A stretch of 64,000 nucleotides of DNA, taken from the NCBI GenBank assembly GCA_016875395.1, contig VGRF01000018.1, positions 1-64,000 of the forward strand, written 5' to 3'. Positions 13,260-35,305 of this stretch are shown here, in pieces. Each line of letters begins with the position of its first letter. The first letter of the stretch is position 1. The translations under genes and the position numbers were made by a program. Source of the stretch: Deltaproteobacteria bacterium (GTDB taxonomy: Bacteria > Myxococcota_A > UBA9160 > UBA6930). A model generated the notes under the pieces. The model searched no databases. It had not been told where the DNA came from and saw only the letters and a program-made list of their open reading frames with translations.

Positions 13260-13319
13260 GGGGACGCTCCGCAAGAAAGTAAAGCGAGAGTTTCTTTACT
13301 TGCTTGCGGAACGTCCCCG
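13260..13319. repeat. Dispersed hairpin repeat, GGGGACGTTCCGC family, copy 2
   Basis: Left arm begins GGGGACGCTCCGCAAGAAAG, right arm ends TTGCGGAACGTCCCC. The left arm carries GACGCTCC rather than GACGTTCC, giving one G-T type mismatch. It occupies the gap between the divergent engB and CobW genes. Confidence 0.88.
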
Positions 13320-27492: not shown

Positions 27493-27557
27493 GGCGCGCG
27501 AGTAGAGCAGATCGAGGACGCTGGGGCCGCGGGCGAGCCGCCGAGCGACGGCGATGC

Positions 27558-27617
27558 GGGGACGTTCCGCAAGTAAGTAAAGAAGGTCCGCACTTTACTT
27601 TCTTGCGGAACGTCCCC
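27558..27617. repeat. Dispersed hairpin repeat, GGGGACGTTCCGC family, copy 3
   Basis: Arms start GGGGACGTTCCGCAAGTAAG and end CTTGCGGAACGTCCCC; the inner stem adds AGTAAAG against CTTTACT. It lies upstream of the aminotransferase start, within the tandem duplication. Confidence 0.9.
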
Positions 27618-27742
27618 GGCTCTTGCGTCCCCGGCTTTTGCGGCGAGAGCGCGCGAATCGAGTCGGGAATCCGCATGGCGCGCGAATAGACCAGATCGAG
27701 GACGCGGGAGCCGTGGGCGAGCCGCCGAGCGGCGGCGAATGC

Positions 27743-27802
27743 GGGGACGTTCCGCAAGTAAGTAAAGAAAGTCCGCGCTTTACTTTCTTGCGGAACGTCC
27801 CC
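27743..27802. repeat. Dispersed hairpin repeat, GGGGACGTTCCGC family, copy 4
   Basis: Nearly identical to copy 3, with the centre AAGTCCGCGC instead of AGGTCCGCAC. It lies between the duplicated aminotransferase fragment and the divergent ccm operon. Confidence 0.9.
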
Positions 27803-27950
27803 GGCTTTACGTCCCCAGCTCCATCTGCCCATCCCCAGTTTGCCCGCCCGTAATCCGCGCACCCGCTGCGCCATCGTGCTGGCGTCGTGTGACGAAACTC
27901 ACGGCCCGCCGCGTTGCCCGCTCCGCGCGCTCTCCCTAGCTTGCTCGGCC

Positions 27951-28391
27951 ATGTCGAAGGGCCTTCAGATCGCGGTTGGCGCCCTCCTCGTCGCCGGCCT
28001 GCTGGTGTGGTTCGGCGCGTCACGCAGCGGCGAGGACGCGTTCACGTACTTCCAGACCTTGGGCGAGTTCCAGGCGCGCGGCGCGGTGGGCGAGCCGGTG
28101 CGCGTTCACGGCTACGTCGCCCTCGGCACGATCGAGCGGGACGTCGCCGCAAAGCGCGTCACGTTCGCGGTGCAGGAGAAGGCGCCGCACGCAGGCGGGT
28201 CGCCCGACGGCGCGCTCGTGGTCGAGTACGCGAGCCTCGAGACGCCGGACTTGTTCAAGGACGGCGCCGAGGTGGTGGTCGAGGGGAAGCTCGCGCCAGG
28301 CGGCACTTTCCACGCGACGAACCTGCTGGCGAAGTGCCCGTCGAAGTTCGAGGCGAAGGAAGAAGCGGCGGCGCGCGCACAGAACGTCTAA
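27951..28391 (+). CDS. ccmE: Cytochrome c maturation heme chaperone CcmE, Cys-type
   Basis: Membrane-anchored periplasmic protein that binds heme covalently and passes it to CcmF. 146 aa: membrane anchor LQIAVGALLVAGLLVWFGAS (about 5-24), then an OB-fold with VHGYVALGTIERDVAAKRVT and VVVEGKLAPGGTFHATNLL. The usual heme-attachment HxxxY is replaced: the motif reads LLAKCPSKF, Cys at 129 and Phe at 133. A Cys-type CcmE (CxxxY) defines the variant System I* known from Desulfovibrio and archaea; here even the Tyr is changed. First gene of the ccm operon; ATG 27951. Confidence 0.9.
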   Translation: MSKGLQIAVGALLVAGLLVWFGASRSGEDAFTYFQTLGEFQARGAVGEPVRVHGYVALGTIERDVAAKRVTFAVQEKAPHAGGSPDGALVVEYASLETPDLFKDGAEVVVEGKLAPGGTFHATNLLAKCPSKFEAKEEAAARAQNV

Positions 28392-28481: not shown

Positions 28482-30434
28482 GTGAGCGATCTCGGTTACT
28501 ACGCGTCTCTCCTTGCCCTGCTCGCTGCCGGCGCCGCCGCGGTCGCCGGCGCGATCGGCGGCGTCACGCGCTCCGAGGAGTGGGCGACCGTCGCGCGCCG
28601 CGGCATCTACGGCTTGTTCGCACTGACCAGCGTCGCGCTCGCGTGCCTCTTCTACGCCTTCGCGACGTTCGATTTCCAGCTCGAGTACGTCTCCCAGAAC
28701 GCCGCGCGCACGATGCCCACGCACTATCGCCTCGCCGCGGTGTGGGGCGCGCAGGCGGGCTCGCTGCTGTTGTGGACGTGGATGACCGCGGCCTACGCGG
28801 CCATCGCGATCACCGTGCAGCGCCGCGAGCGCGCGCTGATTCCGTGGGTGTGCCTCGTCCTCGGCCTCAACGCGGCGTTCTTCCTCGTGCTGCTGAACTT
28901 CGTCTCGAACCCGTTCGAGAAGCTGCCGGCGACCCACGTGATGTCCGACGGCAACGGCATGAACCCGCTGCTGCAGCACCCGGTGATGATGATTCACCCC
29001 CTCGTGCTCTACCTCGGCATGACGGGCTTCTCGGTGCCGTTCGCCTTCGCGCTCGCCGCGCTCGCCTCCGGTCAGCTCGGCACGACCTGGATGCGCGTGA
29101 CGCGGCGCTGGACGCTGTGGGCGTGGTGCTTCCTCTCGATCGGCATCCTGCTCGGCGGGCGCTGGGCCTACGAAGTGCTCGGCTGGGGCGGCTACTGGGC
29201 GTGGGATCCCGTCGAGAACGCCTCGTTCATGCCCTGGCTCGCGGGCACGGCCTACTTGCACTCGGTGATGGTGCAAGAGAAGCGCGACATGCTGAAGATT
29301 TGGAACTTCGTGCTGATCGGCCTCACTTACGGGCTGTGCTTGTTCGGCACGATGATCACGCGCGCAGGGCTCGTCAGGTCCGTCCACGCCTTTGCCCAGA
29401 CCGAGATCTTCGGCGTGCTGTTCGCGTGGTACGTCGGCGCCGTGCTCCTGGCGTTCGTCGTGGCTGTGCTCTGGCGCGTGCCGCAGCTGCGCTCGCCGAA
29501 CCGGCTCGAGTCCGTCGTCTCGCGCGAGGCGAGCTTCGTCATCAACAACTGGCTGTTCATGGCGATCCTCGCGGTCGTGTTCTTCGGGACGCTCTACCCG
29601 AAGTTCTCGACGCTGATCCAAGGCAAGGAAGTGCTGTTCGGGCCGCAGTGGTTCGACCTCTGGCTCGCACCGATCGGCATCGGCCTGCTCTTCCTCACGG
29701 GCGTCGGCCCGCTGCTCGCGTGGCGCCGCGCGACTCCCGCGAACCTGCGCCGCCAGCTGATCTTCCCCGCCGCCTGCGGCGCGCTCACCTTCGCGGCGCT
29801 GCTCGCGCTGTTGGGGACCGACGAGTGGCTCGCGGCGCTGACGTGGGGTATCGCGGCGCTCGTCACGGGGACGATCTGCGAGGAGTTCTGGCGCGCGACG
29901 AAGGCGAAGATGCGCGGCGGCGACTCCGCGCCCAGCGCGCTCGCGAAGCTGTTCCGCATGAACCAGCAGCGCTACGGCGGCTACGTCGTGCACCTCGGCG
30001 TGGTGTTCTTCTTCATTGGCTTCACCGGCCAGGCCCTCGACACCGAGCGACTCGAGAACCTCGCGCCCGGCGGCACGCTCGAAGTGCGCGACTACAAGCT
30101 GAAGTACCTCACGGCTGAGCCGATCCTCGGCGAGCACCACGGCGGCGCCGAGGCGCGCCTCGCGCTCTACAAGAACGACGAGCCGCTCGCGACGCTCACG
30201 CCCGAGAAGCGCATGTACTGGCTCGAGCAGCAGCCGAATTCGATCCCAGCGGTCTACTCGACGTTCGCCGAAGACTTCTACGTGATCCTCACCGCGATCG
30301 AGCCGAACGGCTCCGCCACGCTGAAGGTGTTCGTGAACCCGCTCGTGAGCTGGATCTGGCTCGGCGGCCTCACGTTCGTGATCGGCACGGTGCTCGTGAT
30401 GTGGCCGCACCCACGCCGCGCAGCCGCCGCGTGA
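28482..30434 (+). CDS. ccmF: Cytochrome c heme lyase subunit CcmF
   Basis: Large inner-membrane protein that takes heme from CcmE and attaches it to apocytochrome c. 650 aa, about 15 hydrophobic segments. The tryptophan-rich WWD-type region reads LGWGGYWAWDPVENASFMPW (about 233-252), and HYRLAAVWGAQAGSLLLWTW and FGTMITRAGLVRSVHAFAQT are further family motifs with conserved His. GTG start at 28482. The stop overlaps the next gene's ATG (TGATG). No CcmH or CcmG gene is in the window, consistent with the System I*-like CcmE. Confidence 0.95.
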   Translation: MSDLGYYASLLALLAAGAAAVAGAIGGVTRSEEWATVARRGIYGLFALTSVALACLFYAFATFDFQLEYVSQNAARTMPTHYRLAAVWGAQAGSLLLWTWMTAAYAAIAITVQRRERALIPWVCLVLGLNAAFFLVLLNFVSNPFEKLPATHVMSDGNGMNPLLQHPVMMIHPLVLYLGMTGFSVPFAFALAALASGQLGTTWMRVTRRWTLWAWCFLSIGILLGGRWAYEVLGWGGYWAWDPVENASFMPWLAGTAYLHSVMVQEKRDMLKIWNFVLIGLTYGLCLFGTMITRAGLVRSVHAFAQTEIFGVLFAWYVGAVLLAFVVAVLWRVPQLRSPNRLESVVSREASFVINNWLFMAILAVVFFGTLYPKFSTLIQGKEVLFGPQWFDLWLAPIGIGLLFLTGVGPLLAWRRATPANLRRQLIFPAACGALTFAALLALLGTDEWLAALTWGIAALVTGTICEEFWRATKAKMRGGDSAPSALAKLFRMNQQRYGGYVVHLGVVFFFIGFTGQALDTERLENLAPGGTLEVRDYKLKYLTAEPILGEHHGGAEARLALYKNDEPLATLTPEKRMYWLEQQPNSIPAVYSTFAEDFYVILTAIEPNGSATLKVFVNPLVSWIWLGGLTFVIGTVLVMWPHPRRAAAA

Positions 30435-32224
30435 TGCTCCGCCGCGCGCTCACAGTCCTCATCGCTCTCGCTCTCGCAGCCGGCGCGAGCGCGGAGGGCG
30501 AAGCTCCGCCCGACGTGCCCGCCGGCGAGGCGCGCATCAGCGGGCGCGTGCTGAAGGGCGAGACGACCACGCCGATCGCCGGGGTCGAGGTCGTGCTCTA
30601 CGCGCTCAGCGCCGACGGCGTGCCGGGCCTGCGCCGCGCGACCAGCGATGCGAGCGGCGCGTTCGCGTTCGAGAAGATCTCCGGCTCGGCGCAGATCGCG
30701 TATCTCGTCGGCGCGCGGTACGAGGGCATCCCGGTTCCGGGCGGGCGCATCGCCTTCGAGCCGGGCCAGACGAGCGCGACTGCGGACATCCGCGTCGCGC
30801 CGGTCTCGCGTGATCTCTCCCGCGTTCGCGTGCGCGCGCAGACGCTGCGCCTCTATCGCGAAGCCGAGGGCCTGCGCGTGGAGGAGACGCTCGACATCGA
30901 GCAGACGGGCGCGGAGATCGCGCACGCGCCGAAGGATGCGCGCGCGCGCGTGATCGCACCGGTGCGCGCGACGCTGCCGGCGGGGGCCTCCGACTTCCGC
31001 ATGCCGCTCGGCGTGATTCCCGAAGGCCTCGAACGCGAGGGCAGCACGGTCCGGTACTTCGGCCCCTTCTATCCGGGCCGCCAGGATCTGGTGTGGGCCT
31101 ACCGCCTGGGCGCGGCCGAGACGACGCCGGACGGCGCGAGCTTCCGCTTCGCGTTCACGCCCGCGGCCGGCGCCGAGAGCGTCAGCGTGCTCGTTCCGAA
31201 CGAGGTCCGCGCGTTCAGCGCTCCCGGCCTCGCGAGCGAAGGCGCTGCCGACGACAACGGCCGCAGCGTCACGCGCTACAGCGGGGCGCCCGCGCGAGGC
31301 CTCGAGATCTCGCTCGTCGCGCAGGCGGCGCGGGTCGACCCGAACGCGCTCAGCACGCCCGAAGTGCAGATCGTCGTGCAGGCCGACGACGCAGCGATGA
31401 CCGTGAGCGAGATGCACCTGCTGCGCGCGACGGGCGACGGCCTCCTGCTCGGAACGCCGCAGGCGCCCCTGCTGCGCGTGCCGCTGCCCGAGGGCGCGAG
31501 CGACGTGCGCTTCGGCAGCGAGGCGAAGGGGCTCGAGTTCGCGCCGGGACCCGGCGGCGCCGTGGACGTGCTCGGCAGCTTCGCGCCGGGCGAAGCGCCG
31601 GTGCAGATCGCGTATCGGCTCGCGGTGCCTGCGAGCGGCGCGCGGCTCGCGCGCGAGTTCGGCGTGCGCGTCCCGCTCGTGCGCGTGTTCGTGGTCGATC
31701 ACGGGCGGCTCGCGCCGAGTGCCGAGCGCCTTCACCGCGCGCGCCCCGTGCGCACGAACGATCTCAACTACCTCGCGTTCGAGGCCTTCGACGTCGCGCC
31801 CGGCGAGCGGGTCGCTCTCACGCTCGGCGCGCTCCCGCCGCGCAGCAGCGCGAGCCCGACTGCCGCGCGCGCGGTCGCAGCGCTCGGCGCGCTCGCGCTC
31901 GTGTTCTGGCTGCTGCGCCACGTGACGACTCGCGCGGCCGCGGAGCCGGCGGCGGCCGCCGAGCCCGAGCGCAACGAGCGCGAGGCGCTCTACGACGCGA
32001 TCCGCGATCTCGACCACGACTTCGAGACAGCGAAGGTCTCGGCGGAGGATCACGCGCAGCTGCGCGGCGAGCTGCGCGCGAAGGCGGCGGCGCTGATCGC
32101 CGCGCAGGAAGGTGCGCCCGCGCCAGCCGAGCAGCCGCGCGCGTGTCCGCAGTGCGCGGTCGCAGCGGCGCCAGAGCACCGCTTCTGCGCGAGCTGCGGC
32201 ACGCCGCTCGGGTCGCCCGCGTGA
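30434..32224 (+). CDS. Ccm-operon membrane protein with CcmI-like segment and C-terminal zinc ribbon
   Basis: 596 aa. Signal peptide MLRRALTVLIALALAAGASA, a carboxypeptidase-regulatory-like beta domain (ARISGRVLKGETTTPIAGVE, about 32-51), a long periplasmic beta-rich region, then a single membrane helix (about 478-495, ALGALALVFWLLRHV). The cytoplasmic tail has EREALYDAIRDLDHDFETAK followed by VSAEDHAQLRGEL, resembling the CcmI/CcmH 'DLD.D...GK.S.EDY' helix, and ends in a zinc ribbon ACPQCAV...FCASCGTPLG (CxxC x2). It overlaps ccmF and ccmA (GTGA), so a role in cytochrome c assembly is likely. It may stand in for the missing CcmH/CcmI; that is inference. Confidence 0.75.
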   Translation: MLRRALTVLIALALAAGASAEGEAPPDVPAGEARISGRVLKGETTTPIAGVEVVLYALSADGVPGLRRATSDASGAFAFEKISGSAQIAYLVGARYEGIPVPGGRIAFEPGQTSATADIRVAPVSRDLSRVRVRAQTLRLYREAEGLRVEETLDIEQTGAEIAHAPKDARARVIAPVRATLPAGASDFRMPLGVIPEGLEREGSTVRYFGPFYPGRQDLVWAYRLGAAETTPDGASFRFAFTPAAGAESVSVLVPNEVRAFSAPGLASEGAADDNGRSVTRYSGAPARGLEISLVAQAARVDPNALSTPEVQIVVQADDAAMTVSEMHLLRATGDGLLLGTPQAPLLRVPLPEGASDVRFGSEAKGLEFAPGPGGAVDVLGSFAPGEAPVQIAYRLAVPASGARLAREFGVRVPLVRVFVVDHGRLAPSAERLHRARPVRTNDLNYLAFEAFDVAPGERVALTLGALPPRSSASPTAARAVAALGALALVFWLLRHVTTRAAAEPAAAAEPERNEREALYDAIRDLDHDFETAKVSAEDHAQLRGELRAKAAALIAAQEGAPAPAEQPRACPQCAVAAAPEHRFCASCGTPLGSPA

Positions 32225-32934
32225 GCGAGCTGGTGCGCGCGCGCGGGCTGGCCAAGCGCTTCGGGCCCCTCGCTGCGCTGCACCCCCTCGACCTCACACT
32301 CGCGGCCGGCGAGACGCTCGCGCTGCTCGGCCCGAACGGCGCAGGCAAGTCCACGCTTCTGCGCCTCCTCGCCGGCCTCGCACGCCCGAGCGCGGGCGCG
32401 GTGGAAGTCGTCGCCGCGGCGTCGCGCCCGGAGCAGCGGGCGGCCGTGGGCCTCCTCGCGCACGCAACCTTTCTCTATGGGCAGCTCACGGCGCGCGAGA
32501 ACCTCGCGCTCGCAGCGAAGCTCTACGGCGTGCGCGACCCGAACGCGCGCGCAGCGGCGCTGATCGCGGCGCACGAGCTCGCGCCGGTCGCGGAGCGCGC
32601 GGCGGGCGCCCTCTCGCGCGGCTGGGCGCAGCGCGTCGCGATCGCACGCGCGCTCGTGCACGAGCCGCGCCTGCTCTTGCTCGACGAGCCGTTCACCGGG
32701 CTCGATCCCCGCGCTGCCGACAAGCTCGCGGAGCGCCTGTCTGCGCAGCGCGGCGGCGGGCGCGCCGCCGTGCTCGTCACGCACGAGCTCTCGCGCGCCG
32801 CGCAGCTGGCAACGCGCGCGCTCGTGCTCGTGCGCGGCCGCGCGCGTGAGCTGGCCGCGGACGCGCTCGCGAGCGCAGGCGCGCTCGAAGCCGCGTATCG
32901 CGACACGGTCGCAGCGCTGGAGACGGCGCCGTGA
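32221..32934 (+). CDS. ccmA: Cytochrome c maturation ABC ATPase CcmA
   Basis: ATPase that, with CcmB-CcmC-CcmD, releases holo-CcmE. 237 aa. Walker A LLGPNGAGKSTLLRLLAGL (about 37-55), a CcmA-type signature ALSRGWAQRVAIARALV (SRGWAQ in place of SGGQ), Walker B LLLLDEPFTGLD and H-loop VLVTHELSRA. GTG start overlapping the previous stop and the next GTG overlapping its TGA: the whole ccm unit is translationally linked. The Ala-rich C-terminus ends ALETAP. Confidence 0.92.
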   Translation: MSELVRARGLAKRFGPLAALHPLDLTLAAGETLALLGPNGAGKSTLLRLLAGLARPSAGAVEVVAAASRPEQRAAVGLLAHATFLYGQLTARENLALAAKLYGVRDPNARAAALIAAHELAPVAERAAGALSRGWAQRVAIARALVHEPRLLLLDEPFTGLDPRAADKLAERLSAQRGGGRAAVLVTHELSRAAQLATRALVLVRGRARELAADALASAGALEAAYRDTVAALETAP

Positions 32935-33596
32935 GCGCGCTGCTTGCCGTGCTCTGGAAGGACCTCGCGACCGAGTGGCGCAGCCGCGACCGCTTCGCCG
33001 CGATGCTCGTGTTCTCGGTGCTGGTCGTGGTGGTGCTCTACTTCGCCGCGCCGCCTTCGATCGACGCGAGGCTGAACGGGTACGTGCCGGGGCTGCTGTG
33101 GGTCGCGTACTTGTTCGCGGGCGTGCTGGGCATGAACCGCGCCTTCGCCGCGGAGCTGGAGAACGACGCGCTCTCCGCGCTCGCGCTCGCGCCCGTCGAC
33201 CGCGGCTTTCTCTTCCTCGGCAAGGCGCTCGCGAGCTTCGTCGTGCTCGCCGCAGTCCAGGCGATCACGGCGGTCGTGTTCGCGCTGGCGTTCGGCCTCG
33301 ATCTCGCGCCGGTCGCGCTGAAGCTCGCGGCCGTGGCGGGGCTCGGCGCGTTCGGCATCGCCTGCGCCGGCACGCTGCTCGCCGCGATCTCCGTCCGCAC
33401 GCGCTACCGCGAGGTGATGCTGCCGCTGCTCCTCTTGCCGCTGCTCGTGCCCGTGCTGCTCGGCGCGGTGCGCGCCACCACGCAGCTGCTCGCGACCGGG
33501 TCGCTACCGTGGCCACCCGTTCAGCTGCTGCTCGTCGCGGACGCGATCTACCTGATCGTGTCGTTCTTGTGCTTCGAGTACGTGCTCGATGAGTGA
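32931..33596 (+). CDS. ccmB: Cytochrome c maturation permease CcmB
   Basis: 221 aa, six hydrophobic segments. The N-terminus LLAVLWKDLATEWRSRDRFA with the following AMLVFSVLVVVVLYFA is the classic CcmB start. LLWVAYLFAGVLGMNRAFAA and LSALALAPVDRGFLFLGKAL are also diagnostic. GTG 32931 overlaps the ccmA stop. It forms the membrane part of the CcmAB complex needed to free heme-loaded CcmE. Confidence 0.93.
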   Translation: MSALLAVLWKDLATEWRSRDRFAAMLVFSVLVVVVLYFAAPPSIDARLNGYVPGLLWVAYLFAGVLGMNRAFAAELENDALSALALAPVDRGFLFLGKALASFVVLAAVQAITAVVFALAFGLDLAPVALKLAAVAGLGAFGIACAGTLLAAISVRTRYREVMLPLLLLPLLVPVLLGAVRATTQLLATGSLPWPPVQLLLVADAIYLIVSFLCFEYVLDE

Positions 33597-33599
33597 GGC

Positions 33600-34289
33600 G
33601 TGAGGCGGATGCAGCAGTGGAAAACATGGACGGCCGCCGCCCTCGCCGTGCTCGGCGCGTGGTGGCTGTACGCGGTCTGGCAGGCGCCTCTCGATTCCGT
33701 TCAGGGCGTGATCCAGAAGATCCTCTACGTCCACCCGCCCCTCGCCTTCGCCTGCTACGCGGGCTTCATCGGCGCCGCGATCGGCGGCGCGCTCTTCCTG
33801 GCGCGTGGCGACGAGCGCTTCGACCGCTTCGCTGCGGCGTCCGCCGAGGTCGGCGTGGTGTTCGCCACGCTGATGCTGGTCACCGGCCCCATATGGGCGA
33901 GGGGCACCTGGGGCAAGTGGTGGACTTGGGACCCGCGGCTCACCGTGACGCTGATCCTCTACCTCACGTACGTGGCCTACCTGCTGCTGCGCTCGTTCAC
34001 GGAGGGCAGCGAGCGCGCGGCGCGCTTCGCGGCGGTGTACGGGATCCTGGGCGCGGCGCTGATCCCGCTGAACTACTACGCGATCGAGCTGTTCGGGAAC
34101 CGCGCGCTGCATCCCGACAACCTCGGGCGCGGGAGCCTGGGTGAGGGCATGGGGCTTCCGTTCCTGCTCGGCGTGCTCGCGACGTTCGCGGCCTTCGCGT
34201 TCCTGCTGGTGTGGCGGGTCGAGCTCGGGAACCTGCGCGCCGCGCGCGCCGAGCAGCTCGCCCTCGCGGCCGAGCGGGAGGACGCGTGA
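33600..34289 (+). CDS. ccmC: Cytochrome c maturation protein CcmC
   Basis: Loads heme onto CcmE. 229 aa, six membrane helices. The WWD domain reads RGTWGKWWTWDPRLTVTLIL (about 101-120), and the flanking ligand His is in KILYVHPPLAFACYAGF (about 40-56). The second His candidate is in NRALHPDNLGRG. GTG 33600 and ATG 33609 are both possible starts (4 codons apart up to MQQ); neither has a clear ribosome site. The stop overlaps the ccmD GTG. Confidence 0.93.
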   Translation: MRRMQQWKTWTAAALAVLGAWWLYAVWQAPLDSVQGVIQKILYVHPPLAFACYAGFIGAAIGGALFLARGDERFDRFAAASAEVGVVFATLMLVTGPIWARGTWGKWWTWDPRLTVTLILYLTYVAYLLLRSFTEGSERAARFAAVYGILGAALIPLNYYAIELFGNRALHPDNLGRGSLGEGMGLPFLLGVLATFAAFAFLLVWRVELGNLRAARAEQLALAAEREDA

Positions 34290-34411
34290 GCTACTTGATC
34301 TCCGCCTACGCCGTGACTTTGGGCGCGCTGCTGGCCTACGGGGTTCAGCTCCGGGTGAGTGCGCGGCGACTGCGCGAAGAAATCACGCGCGCCGAGTCAA
34401 ATCGCGGTTGA
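34286..34411 (+). CDS. ccmD: Small heme exporter subunit CcmD
   Basis: 41 aa, GTG start at 34286 overlapping the ccmC stop (GTGA). One membrane helix (YLISAYAVTLGALLAYGVQL, residues 3-22) followed by a basic cytoplasmic tail RVSARRLREEITRAESNR, exactly the CcmD pattern. It holds CcmE to CcmABC. Identification depends on size, topology and position at the operon end. Confidence 0.85.
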   Translation: MSYLISAYAVTLGALLAYGVQLRVSARRLREEITRAESNRG

Positions 34412-34807
34412 CGCTCGCGCGCGCGCGGCGGTACAAACCCGAAGCCCATTTCCGCTCCGCCTTCAGCGCTCGTTGCCCCTCCCGACGCCGTCTCCCCCTC
34501 TCGTTCCATGCTCCGGACGCCGTCTCGAGGTGCGAAGAAAGCTGCGGCGTCGCGGGCCGATTCGGCAGCGGTGGGCGGTTCGTTTCTCAACCTCGCGCTT
34601 CGACTGCTCTCGCCCTCTTGGAACGAGCTTCGGTCGCGGCGGCAACTTCGACGCAATCCCAACCCCCAACCCCTTCCCCCAACAACTCGACTCGCCACGG
34701 CGCTCCCCCCAACCCCTCGCGTGGCACGGTGCTCGCATTCGTCCCGCCTCGTGCGGCGCGCGTACGAGCAGGGCGCCGCGGCAATCGACCGGAGGCTCCC
34801 CACTCCC
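34412..34807. other. 396-bp region without a recognised gene
   Basis: Between ccmD and the zinc-ribbon gene. It is pyrimidine-rich and less GC-rich than its surroundings, with runs such as CCCCAACCCCTTCCCCCAAC (near 34661-34685). A reading frame continuous with the downstream gene exists but has no conserved look. It probably contains the leader and promoter of the gene at 34808; no clear hairpin or riboswitch was recognised. Confidence 0.5.
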
Positions 34808-35305
34808 ATGGCCAGCATGAAGCGCGGCGTCGGCTACTGCGAGAACACCGACTGCGAGGACTACGCCAAGGGCGTGTTCCTGCTGAATCACGGCGACACC
34901 TTCTACTGCCCGCGCTGCCGCCAGCTGGGCAAGGTCGAGAAGGAACGCGGCTTCTACACCGGCAACTCGGACATCTTCAAAGAGGTGCGCGTCGAGTACA
35001 ACTTCGACCCGATCAACGGCGTGTACCGCGAGATCGCGATCGTGCGCGACGAGAGCCTCTGGGGCCGTAACAACGTCTACACGCTGCAGTCGCCGCTGAT
35101 CAAGACGGAGAAGCGCGCGCTGAAGGTCGCGGAGGCGATCCTCGCCAACCTGAACCGCTACCGCGGCCTGCTCAACGGCGACGAGATCCCGCGCACGACC
35201 GAGATCATCCTCTCGTTCGACGAGCCCCTCGACGAGTTCAAGCGCAAGGTCGCCCAGCTCGGCCGCGAGCTCGAGGCGAGCGGCCTGCGCGACGCGCGCG
35301 GCTGA
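34808..35305 (+). CDS. Zinc-ribbon protein of unknown function
   Basis: 165 aa. The N-terminus YCENTDCEDYAKGVFLLNHG and TFYCPRCRQLGK carries two Cys pairs (CENTDC and CPRC) that can make a zinc ribbon (about residues 11-38). The rest has YTGNSDIFKEVRVEYNFDPI and a Lys/Arg-rich C-terminal half. Strong conservation-like character throughout suggests a real protein, but I do not recognise the family. ATG 34808 begins the Cys-containing domain; in-frame codons upstream look non-coding. It ends in a strong terminator. Confidence 0.75.
   Translation: MASMKRGVGYCENTDCEDYAKGVFLLNHGDTFYCPRCRQLGKVEKERGFYTGNSDIFKEVRVEYNFDPINGVYREIAIVRDESLWGRNNVYTLQSPLIKTEKRALKVAEAILANLNRYRGLLNGDEIPRTTEIILSFDEPLDEFKRKVAQLGRELEASGLRDARG

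Follow-up and report, generated by a model that had tools for sequence, protein, structure and literature searches.

Among the described pathways of cytochrome c maturation, those closest to the locus analyzed here are System I and its variant, System I*. In System I of E. coli (CcmABCDEFGH), the heme chaperone CcmE carries the motif HxxxY, which is the canonical mark of this system, whereas in System I* the His is replaced by Cys, in the majority form with a Tyr four residues past the Cys. In Desulfovibrio (D. desulfuricans and D. vulgaris), a CcmE of this CxxxY type is combined with the ccmABCDEF core in an operon that lacks ccmG and ccmH, and the archaeal Ccm of Methanosarcina acetivorans (CcmABCEF, also CxxxY) does without CcmD, CcmH and CcmI. 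The absence of CcmH was stated to be a mark of System I* in 2006 and was withdrawn as a characteristic feature in a 2011 review, which found that roughly a third of System I* bacteria have CcmH and that Phe replaces Tyr in 4 System I* genomes, and cited work showing that the Tyr can be removed from E. coli CcmE without loss (PMC3601427). Given these four cases and the finding of Shevket et al. (2018) that about 3% of CcmE have Phe at this position (PMC6204919), the combination of Cys and Phe is already known and rare. The manner in which CcmE holds heme, and releases it when it is linked to a Cys, is a standing problem in the study of cytochrome c maturation.

The locus considered here lies in a 64,000-nucleotide stretch of DNA (the window, at its full length), and the genes from ccmE to ccmD described below are on the forward strand. 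With System I of E. coli it shares homologues of CcmABCDEF and all known heme-ligand His residues of CcmC and CcmF but differs in having Cys and Phe for His and Tyr, and a CcmH that is encoded outside the operon and lacks LRCxxC. The similarity to the Desulfovibrio system extends to the Cys that replaces the His, the ccmABCDEF core, the absence of ccmG and ccmH from the operon and the OB-fold of CcmE (match to 2kct); the differences are Phe for Tyr, an 8-residue xPPHAG hairpin insertion, the unlinked CcmH and a 596-aa zinc-ribbon protein encoded between ccmF and ccmA. The archaeal system of M. acetivorans likewise has a Cys-type CcmE and a short operon, whereas CcmD and CcmH are present here and the CcmE has Phe rather than Tyr.

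The ccmE gene (27951..28391) encodes a 146-aa protein that belongs to the CcmE family by its match to PF03100 (74.8 bits, E=7e-21, against a cut-off of 24.6 bits). In the AlphaFold2 model (mean pLDDT 88.7), an N-terminal transmembrane helix is followed by an OB-fold barrel and a C-terminal heme-binding tail; the best PDB match of the model is 8ce8_E, and other CcmE structures, 1j6q, 1sr3 and 2kct (the D. vulgaris Cys-type CcmE), are also matched. The heme site reads LLAKCPSKF (residues A127-K128-C129-P-S-K-F133), so that CPSKF stands in place of HxxxY. The motif C129-P-S-K-F133 (28335..28349) occupies the position of H130...Y134 of E. coli CcmE and is invariant in a 37-sequence alignment, with C129 encoded by TGC (28335-28337) and F133 by TTC (28347-28349). 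Thus, the preliminary description of this DNA was right in reporting a Cys in place of the heme-binding His and a Tyr to Phe change in the same motif, and in assigning the protein to the Cys type characteristic of System I*. No second CcmE, of the HxxxY type or any other, was found in the genome (4.5 Mb, 96% complete), so the preliminary description's reservation that such a protein might do the job does not apply, and the copy in the window is the only CcmE.

To place the motif in context, we compared CcmE proteins from related genomes, which are uncultured Deltaproteobacteria/Myxococcota MAGs; the order in question we infer to be GTDB UBA9160. CcmE was found in 76 of the 80 genomes of the order, and 75 of these proteins have CPSKF, all 75 Cys-type CcmE of the order having the Phe that corresponds to F133; the remaining one, in genome G006, has HxxxY. 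Outside the order but within the phylum, none of the 54 CcmE read has CPSKF. The sister family f12 of the same class (loci L186-L190) has CPSKY in all five of its CcmE, and elsewhere in the phylum the Tyr is kept in 18 of 18 sampled Cys-type proteins, while 31 sampled CcmE are HxxxY. A 21-base pattern for [AVTI]-K-C-P-x-K-F, run over 379 genomes of the phylum, matched 75 of the 80 genomes of the order versus one of about 299 others; this sole outside match (G296) is not in a CcmE, and neither is a second match in G003. The occurrence of CPSKF in the order is far beyond chance. In a CcmE tree built with the motif and the insertion left out of the input, one change suffices to explain the distribution of Phe and Tyr, and one that of Cys and His; with few columns and many open forks, this tree supports a single origin of the Phe, short of proof. 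Given the order-wide presence of CPSKF, the near absence of the pattern elsewhere and the single Phe/Tyr change on the tree, CxxxF is a clade character. The HxxxY protein of G006, a bin with 7% contamination, is accompanied by a linked CcmH with LRCxxC and by no CPSKF copy, and is treated here as a contaminant or a product of transfer. Canonical LRCxxC CcmH occur in two genomes of the order, G006 (L047/L128, contig G006:C47) and G070 (L129, G070:C54), and these contigs are probably contaminants or products of transfer as well.

The operon continues from ccmE (27951) with ccmF (28482), the gene for the zinc-ribbon protein (30434), ccmA (32221), ccmB (32931), ccmC (33600) and ccmD (34286), which agrees with the grouping of ccmE, F, A, B, C and D with an inserted membrane protein reported in the preliminary description. 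CcmF (28482..30434), the heme lyase with the WWD domain, matches PF16327 (198 bits) and PF01578 (118 bits); when it was aligned to Thermus CcmF (6zmq), all four heme-ligand His residues (H172, H260, H302 and H504) were found to be kept, and these residues and the WWD domain are retained in the window as well as in the sampled genomes of the order. CcmC (33600..34289), the heme-handling protein with a WWD domain (PF01578, 104.7 bits), was aligned to E. coli CcmC (7f02) and retains the WWD and both P-His residues, H45 and H171, in the window and in the sampled genomes of the order, where the two His are invariant. The ABC permease CcmB (32931..33596) matches PF03379 with 106.6 bits, and CcmE, CcmF, CcmB and CcmC all score well over the family cut-offs. 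The calls of the ABC ATPase CcmA (32221..32934; PF00005; TIGR01189 at 126.6 bits, just under the cut-off of 131.6) and of the 41-aa CcmD (34286..34411; PF04995 at 20.9 bits, below the cut-off of 25.6), with scores under the curated cut-offs, rest partly on position in the operon; Tyr8 of CcmD is conserved in the window and in the sampled genomes of the order. The gene order ccmE-ccmF-zinc-ribbon protein-ccmA-ccmB-ccmC runs through the order and the sister family f12, which shares the operon genes including that for the zinc-ribbon protein, the Cys-type CcmE and, in the f12 genomes read, a CPG-type CcmH, but differs from the UBA9160 order in having CPSKY and no PPH insertion in CcmE. The gene that follows ccmD in nearly all intact operons of the order, as well as in four of the five sister-family operons, encodes a conserved four-Cys zinc-finger-like protein (34508-35305 in the window).

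The 596-aa protein encoded between ccmF and ccmA (30434..32224; model pLDDT 84.8), the place of which is conserved throughout the order and the sister family, consists of a signal peptide, periplasmic beta domains, a transmembrane helix (475-496), a helical hairpin (511-558) and a C-terminal zinc ribbon, the cellular placement of these parts following from the domain layout. The hairpin resembles the N-terminal region of CcmI, and 14 of 19 orthologues give a match to the corresponding model, TIGR03142 (4.8e-6 for the best), the window copy reaching 14 bits against a cut-off of 29; the zinc ribbon is present in all 19. The earlier label "CcmI-like zinc-ribbon membrane protein" thus stands for the zinc ribbon and for the membrane and helical segment, to which the likeness to CcmI, as judged by sequence, appears to be limited. 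No TPR domain was matched in Pfam, which is no proof that there is none. In Foldseek searches, the beta domains resemble those of ribophorin I and M1 aminopeptidases (E 2e-13); with TM-scores near 0.2, we draw no function from these relatives. A role of this protein in apocytochrome handling appears plausible.

At the level of the operon, the absence of ccmG and ccmH noted in the preliminary description is real, neither gene being found inside or beside it. The claim fails for the genome as a whole: a gene on another contig (G000:C11:107125-107466; ORF L033:8949-9515) encodes a protein of the CcmH family, with a PF03918 score of about 61 bits (61.2-61.5; cut-off 25). The preliminary description had itself named a ccmH gene in the genome as an observation that would speak against its reading, and such a gene is present. 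Furthermore, PF03918 proteins are encoded in 75 of the 80 genomes of the order, including all 38 of the good ones, and the unlinked ccmH nearly always lies between cysE and pduO, in a cysE-ccmH-pduO-meaB arrangement well removed from the ccm genes. The LRCxxC redox motif is absent from this CcmH, which in this genome reads MSPWCPGFSLPDCSS; in the relatives, the motif is MSP[FY]CPGRTLxxCPS or, more widely, MSP[FYW]CPGxxLxxC. The high-scoring CcmH read from elsewhere in the phylum carry LRCxxC, and the coordinates place most of their genes on the contig of an HxxxY ccmE, some 3 kb downstream of it. Cys-type genomes have a CcmH of the CPG type, of the CCWN type or fused to CcmF, or none that was detectable, the CCWN-type and fused forms occurring in other Cys-type Myxococcota. 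CcmH has not been lost; we propose that its gene left the operon and that its cysteine motif was altered. The link of the CPG-type CcmH to the ccm operon is suggested by family membership and co-occurrence. In this order, Cys-type CcmE goes together with CcmH, and the latter, being unlinked and altered in its cysteine motif, is overlooked when only gene neighborhoods are read.

A candidate for the role of CcmG is a membrane-anchored ResA/TlpA-type thioredoxin with the motif WCAPC (L275; C20:65227-65613), which scores best against the ResA model and reaches 58 bits with the dsbE model, against a cut-off of 123. DsbD/CcdA (PF02683), which bears on how a CcmG-like thioredoxin would obtain its electrons, was not detected in this genome even at E<=1, owing to either loss or an assembly gap; one is encoded in 75 of the 80 genomes of the order, so that the lack of it here does not characterize the system. 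The genome encodes c-type cytochromes, with at least 13 cytochrome c domains of PF13442 over the cut-off. A third PF01578 gene, considered as a System II CcsA, was rejected because it is hemX, adjoining hemA, and no System II was seen among the PF01578 genes of the genome.

Observed directly are the gene content, the motif, the retention of all known heme-ligand residues of CcmC and CcmF, the c-type cytochromes and the lack of another CcmE; in our assessment, the operon very probably encodes a functional Cys-type System I* that lacks the Tyr ligand and retains an unlinked CcmH, a prediction made from the genes. Under this scenario, CcmABCD would load Cys129 of CcmE with heme from CcmC, with its His45, His171 and WWD domain; CcmE would then take the heme on to CcmF for attachment to apocytochromes. 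The heme would be held by Cys129, either covalently or as a thiolate. The Tyr axial ligand appears to have been lost once in the clade, with Phe fixed in its place; since even E. coli CcmE can do without this Tyr, such a loss should be tolerated. Phe may retain aromatic packing while the iron takes a different ligand, be it water, the thiolate of the Cys or some other residue. The job of CcmG probably falls to the ResA/TlpA-like membrane thioredoxin, and that of CcmI, likewise probably, to the zinc-ribbon protein and its CcmI-like anchor.

Several other readings have to be weighed against this one. That CcmE binds heme exclusively non-covalently, through the Cys thiolate, hence making the Tyr dispensable, follows the report that the D. 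vulgaris Cys-type CcmE binds ferric heme non-covalently via C127 (PMC3884852); however, the Cys-type CcmE of D. desulfuricans (PMC3601427) and M. acetivorans (PMC9084895) have been reported to bind heme covalently, and we regard this reading as unlikely. The version advanced in the preliminary description, a third flavor of System I* with no real need of CcmH and CcmG, draws on the lack of both genes from the operon and on the ability of the Desulfovibrio operon to work in E. coli without them (PMC3601427), but it conflicts with the conserved locus at which this genome and almost all others of the order encode CcmH, and with the presence of ResA/TlpA-type thioredoxins, which leaves it very improbable. 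The term was also an overstatement, given that Phe for Tyr and CcmH have both already been recorded in System I* (PMC3601427). If this CcmE were in decay or had been put to another use, with heme transport given up, the loss of an otherwise near-universal Tyr would be explained; with C129 and its neighbors invariant, this protein the only CcmE in the genome and many c-type cytochromes present, such a fate is hardly credible.

A ligand swap, in which the lost Tyr would be replaced as axial heme ligand by H80 of a new hairpin loop, xPPHAG, yielding a Cys-attached, His-ligated carrier, would give the iron a specific partner. The order-specific insertion A78-P79-H80-A-G-G-S-P (28182..28205; order consensus xPPHAGG), with the codon for His80 at 28188-28190, follows the strand FxVQ and comprises 8 residues (78-85, APHAGGSP). 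Among the aligned sequences, every one of the 75 CPSKF proteins carries the insertion and all 55 Tyr proteins lack it, as do the sister family and the rest of the phylum; residue 80 is His in 72 of the 75 and Met in one, and the loop is modeled by AlphaFold2 with good confidence. However, two of these proteins have Gln at position 80, and the Phe and the insertion represent one evolutionary event only, so their coupling could be due to hitch-hiking. Furthermore, by the strand order of the model (E69-75, loop, E89-93, with the tail after E120-127), the loop should sit at the end of the barrel opposite C129. We therefore consider the swap decidedly doubtful, and a functional Cys-type System I* without the Tyr ligand remains the preferred reading. 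The insertion nevertheless points to a particular candidate ligand of the iron that can be put to the test, and an entire order with Phe fixed at the ligand position is a natural set of mutants. In the open-access literature, we found nothing relevant on CPSKF, or on UBA9160 in connection with cytochromes, and no description of the order-wide fixation of CPSKF, of the xPPHAG insertion coupled to it or of a CPG-type CcmH that is stably unlinked.

Outside the operon, the window contains four copies of a REP-like palindrome, GGGGACGTTCCGCAAG...CTTGCGGAACGTCCCC (27554-27621, 27739-27806, 1050-1107 and 13260-13318), the arms of which are 26 nt long in the two copies measured. Two copies lie within a tandemly duplicated segment (about 184 bp) that takes in the 5' end of an aminotransferase gene located upstream of ccmE.
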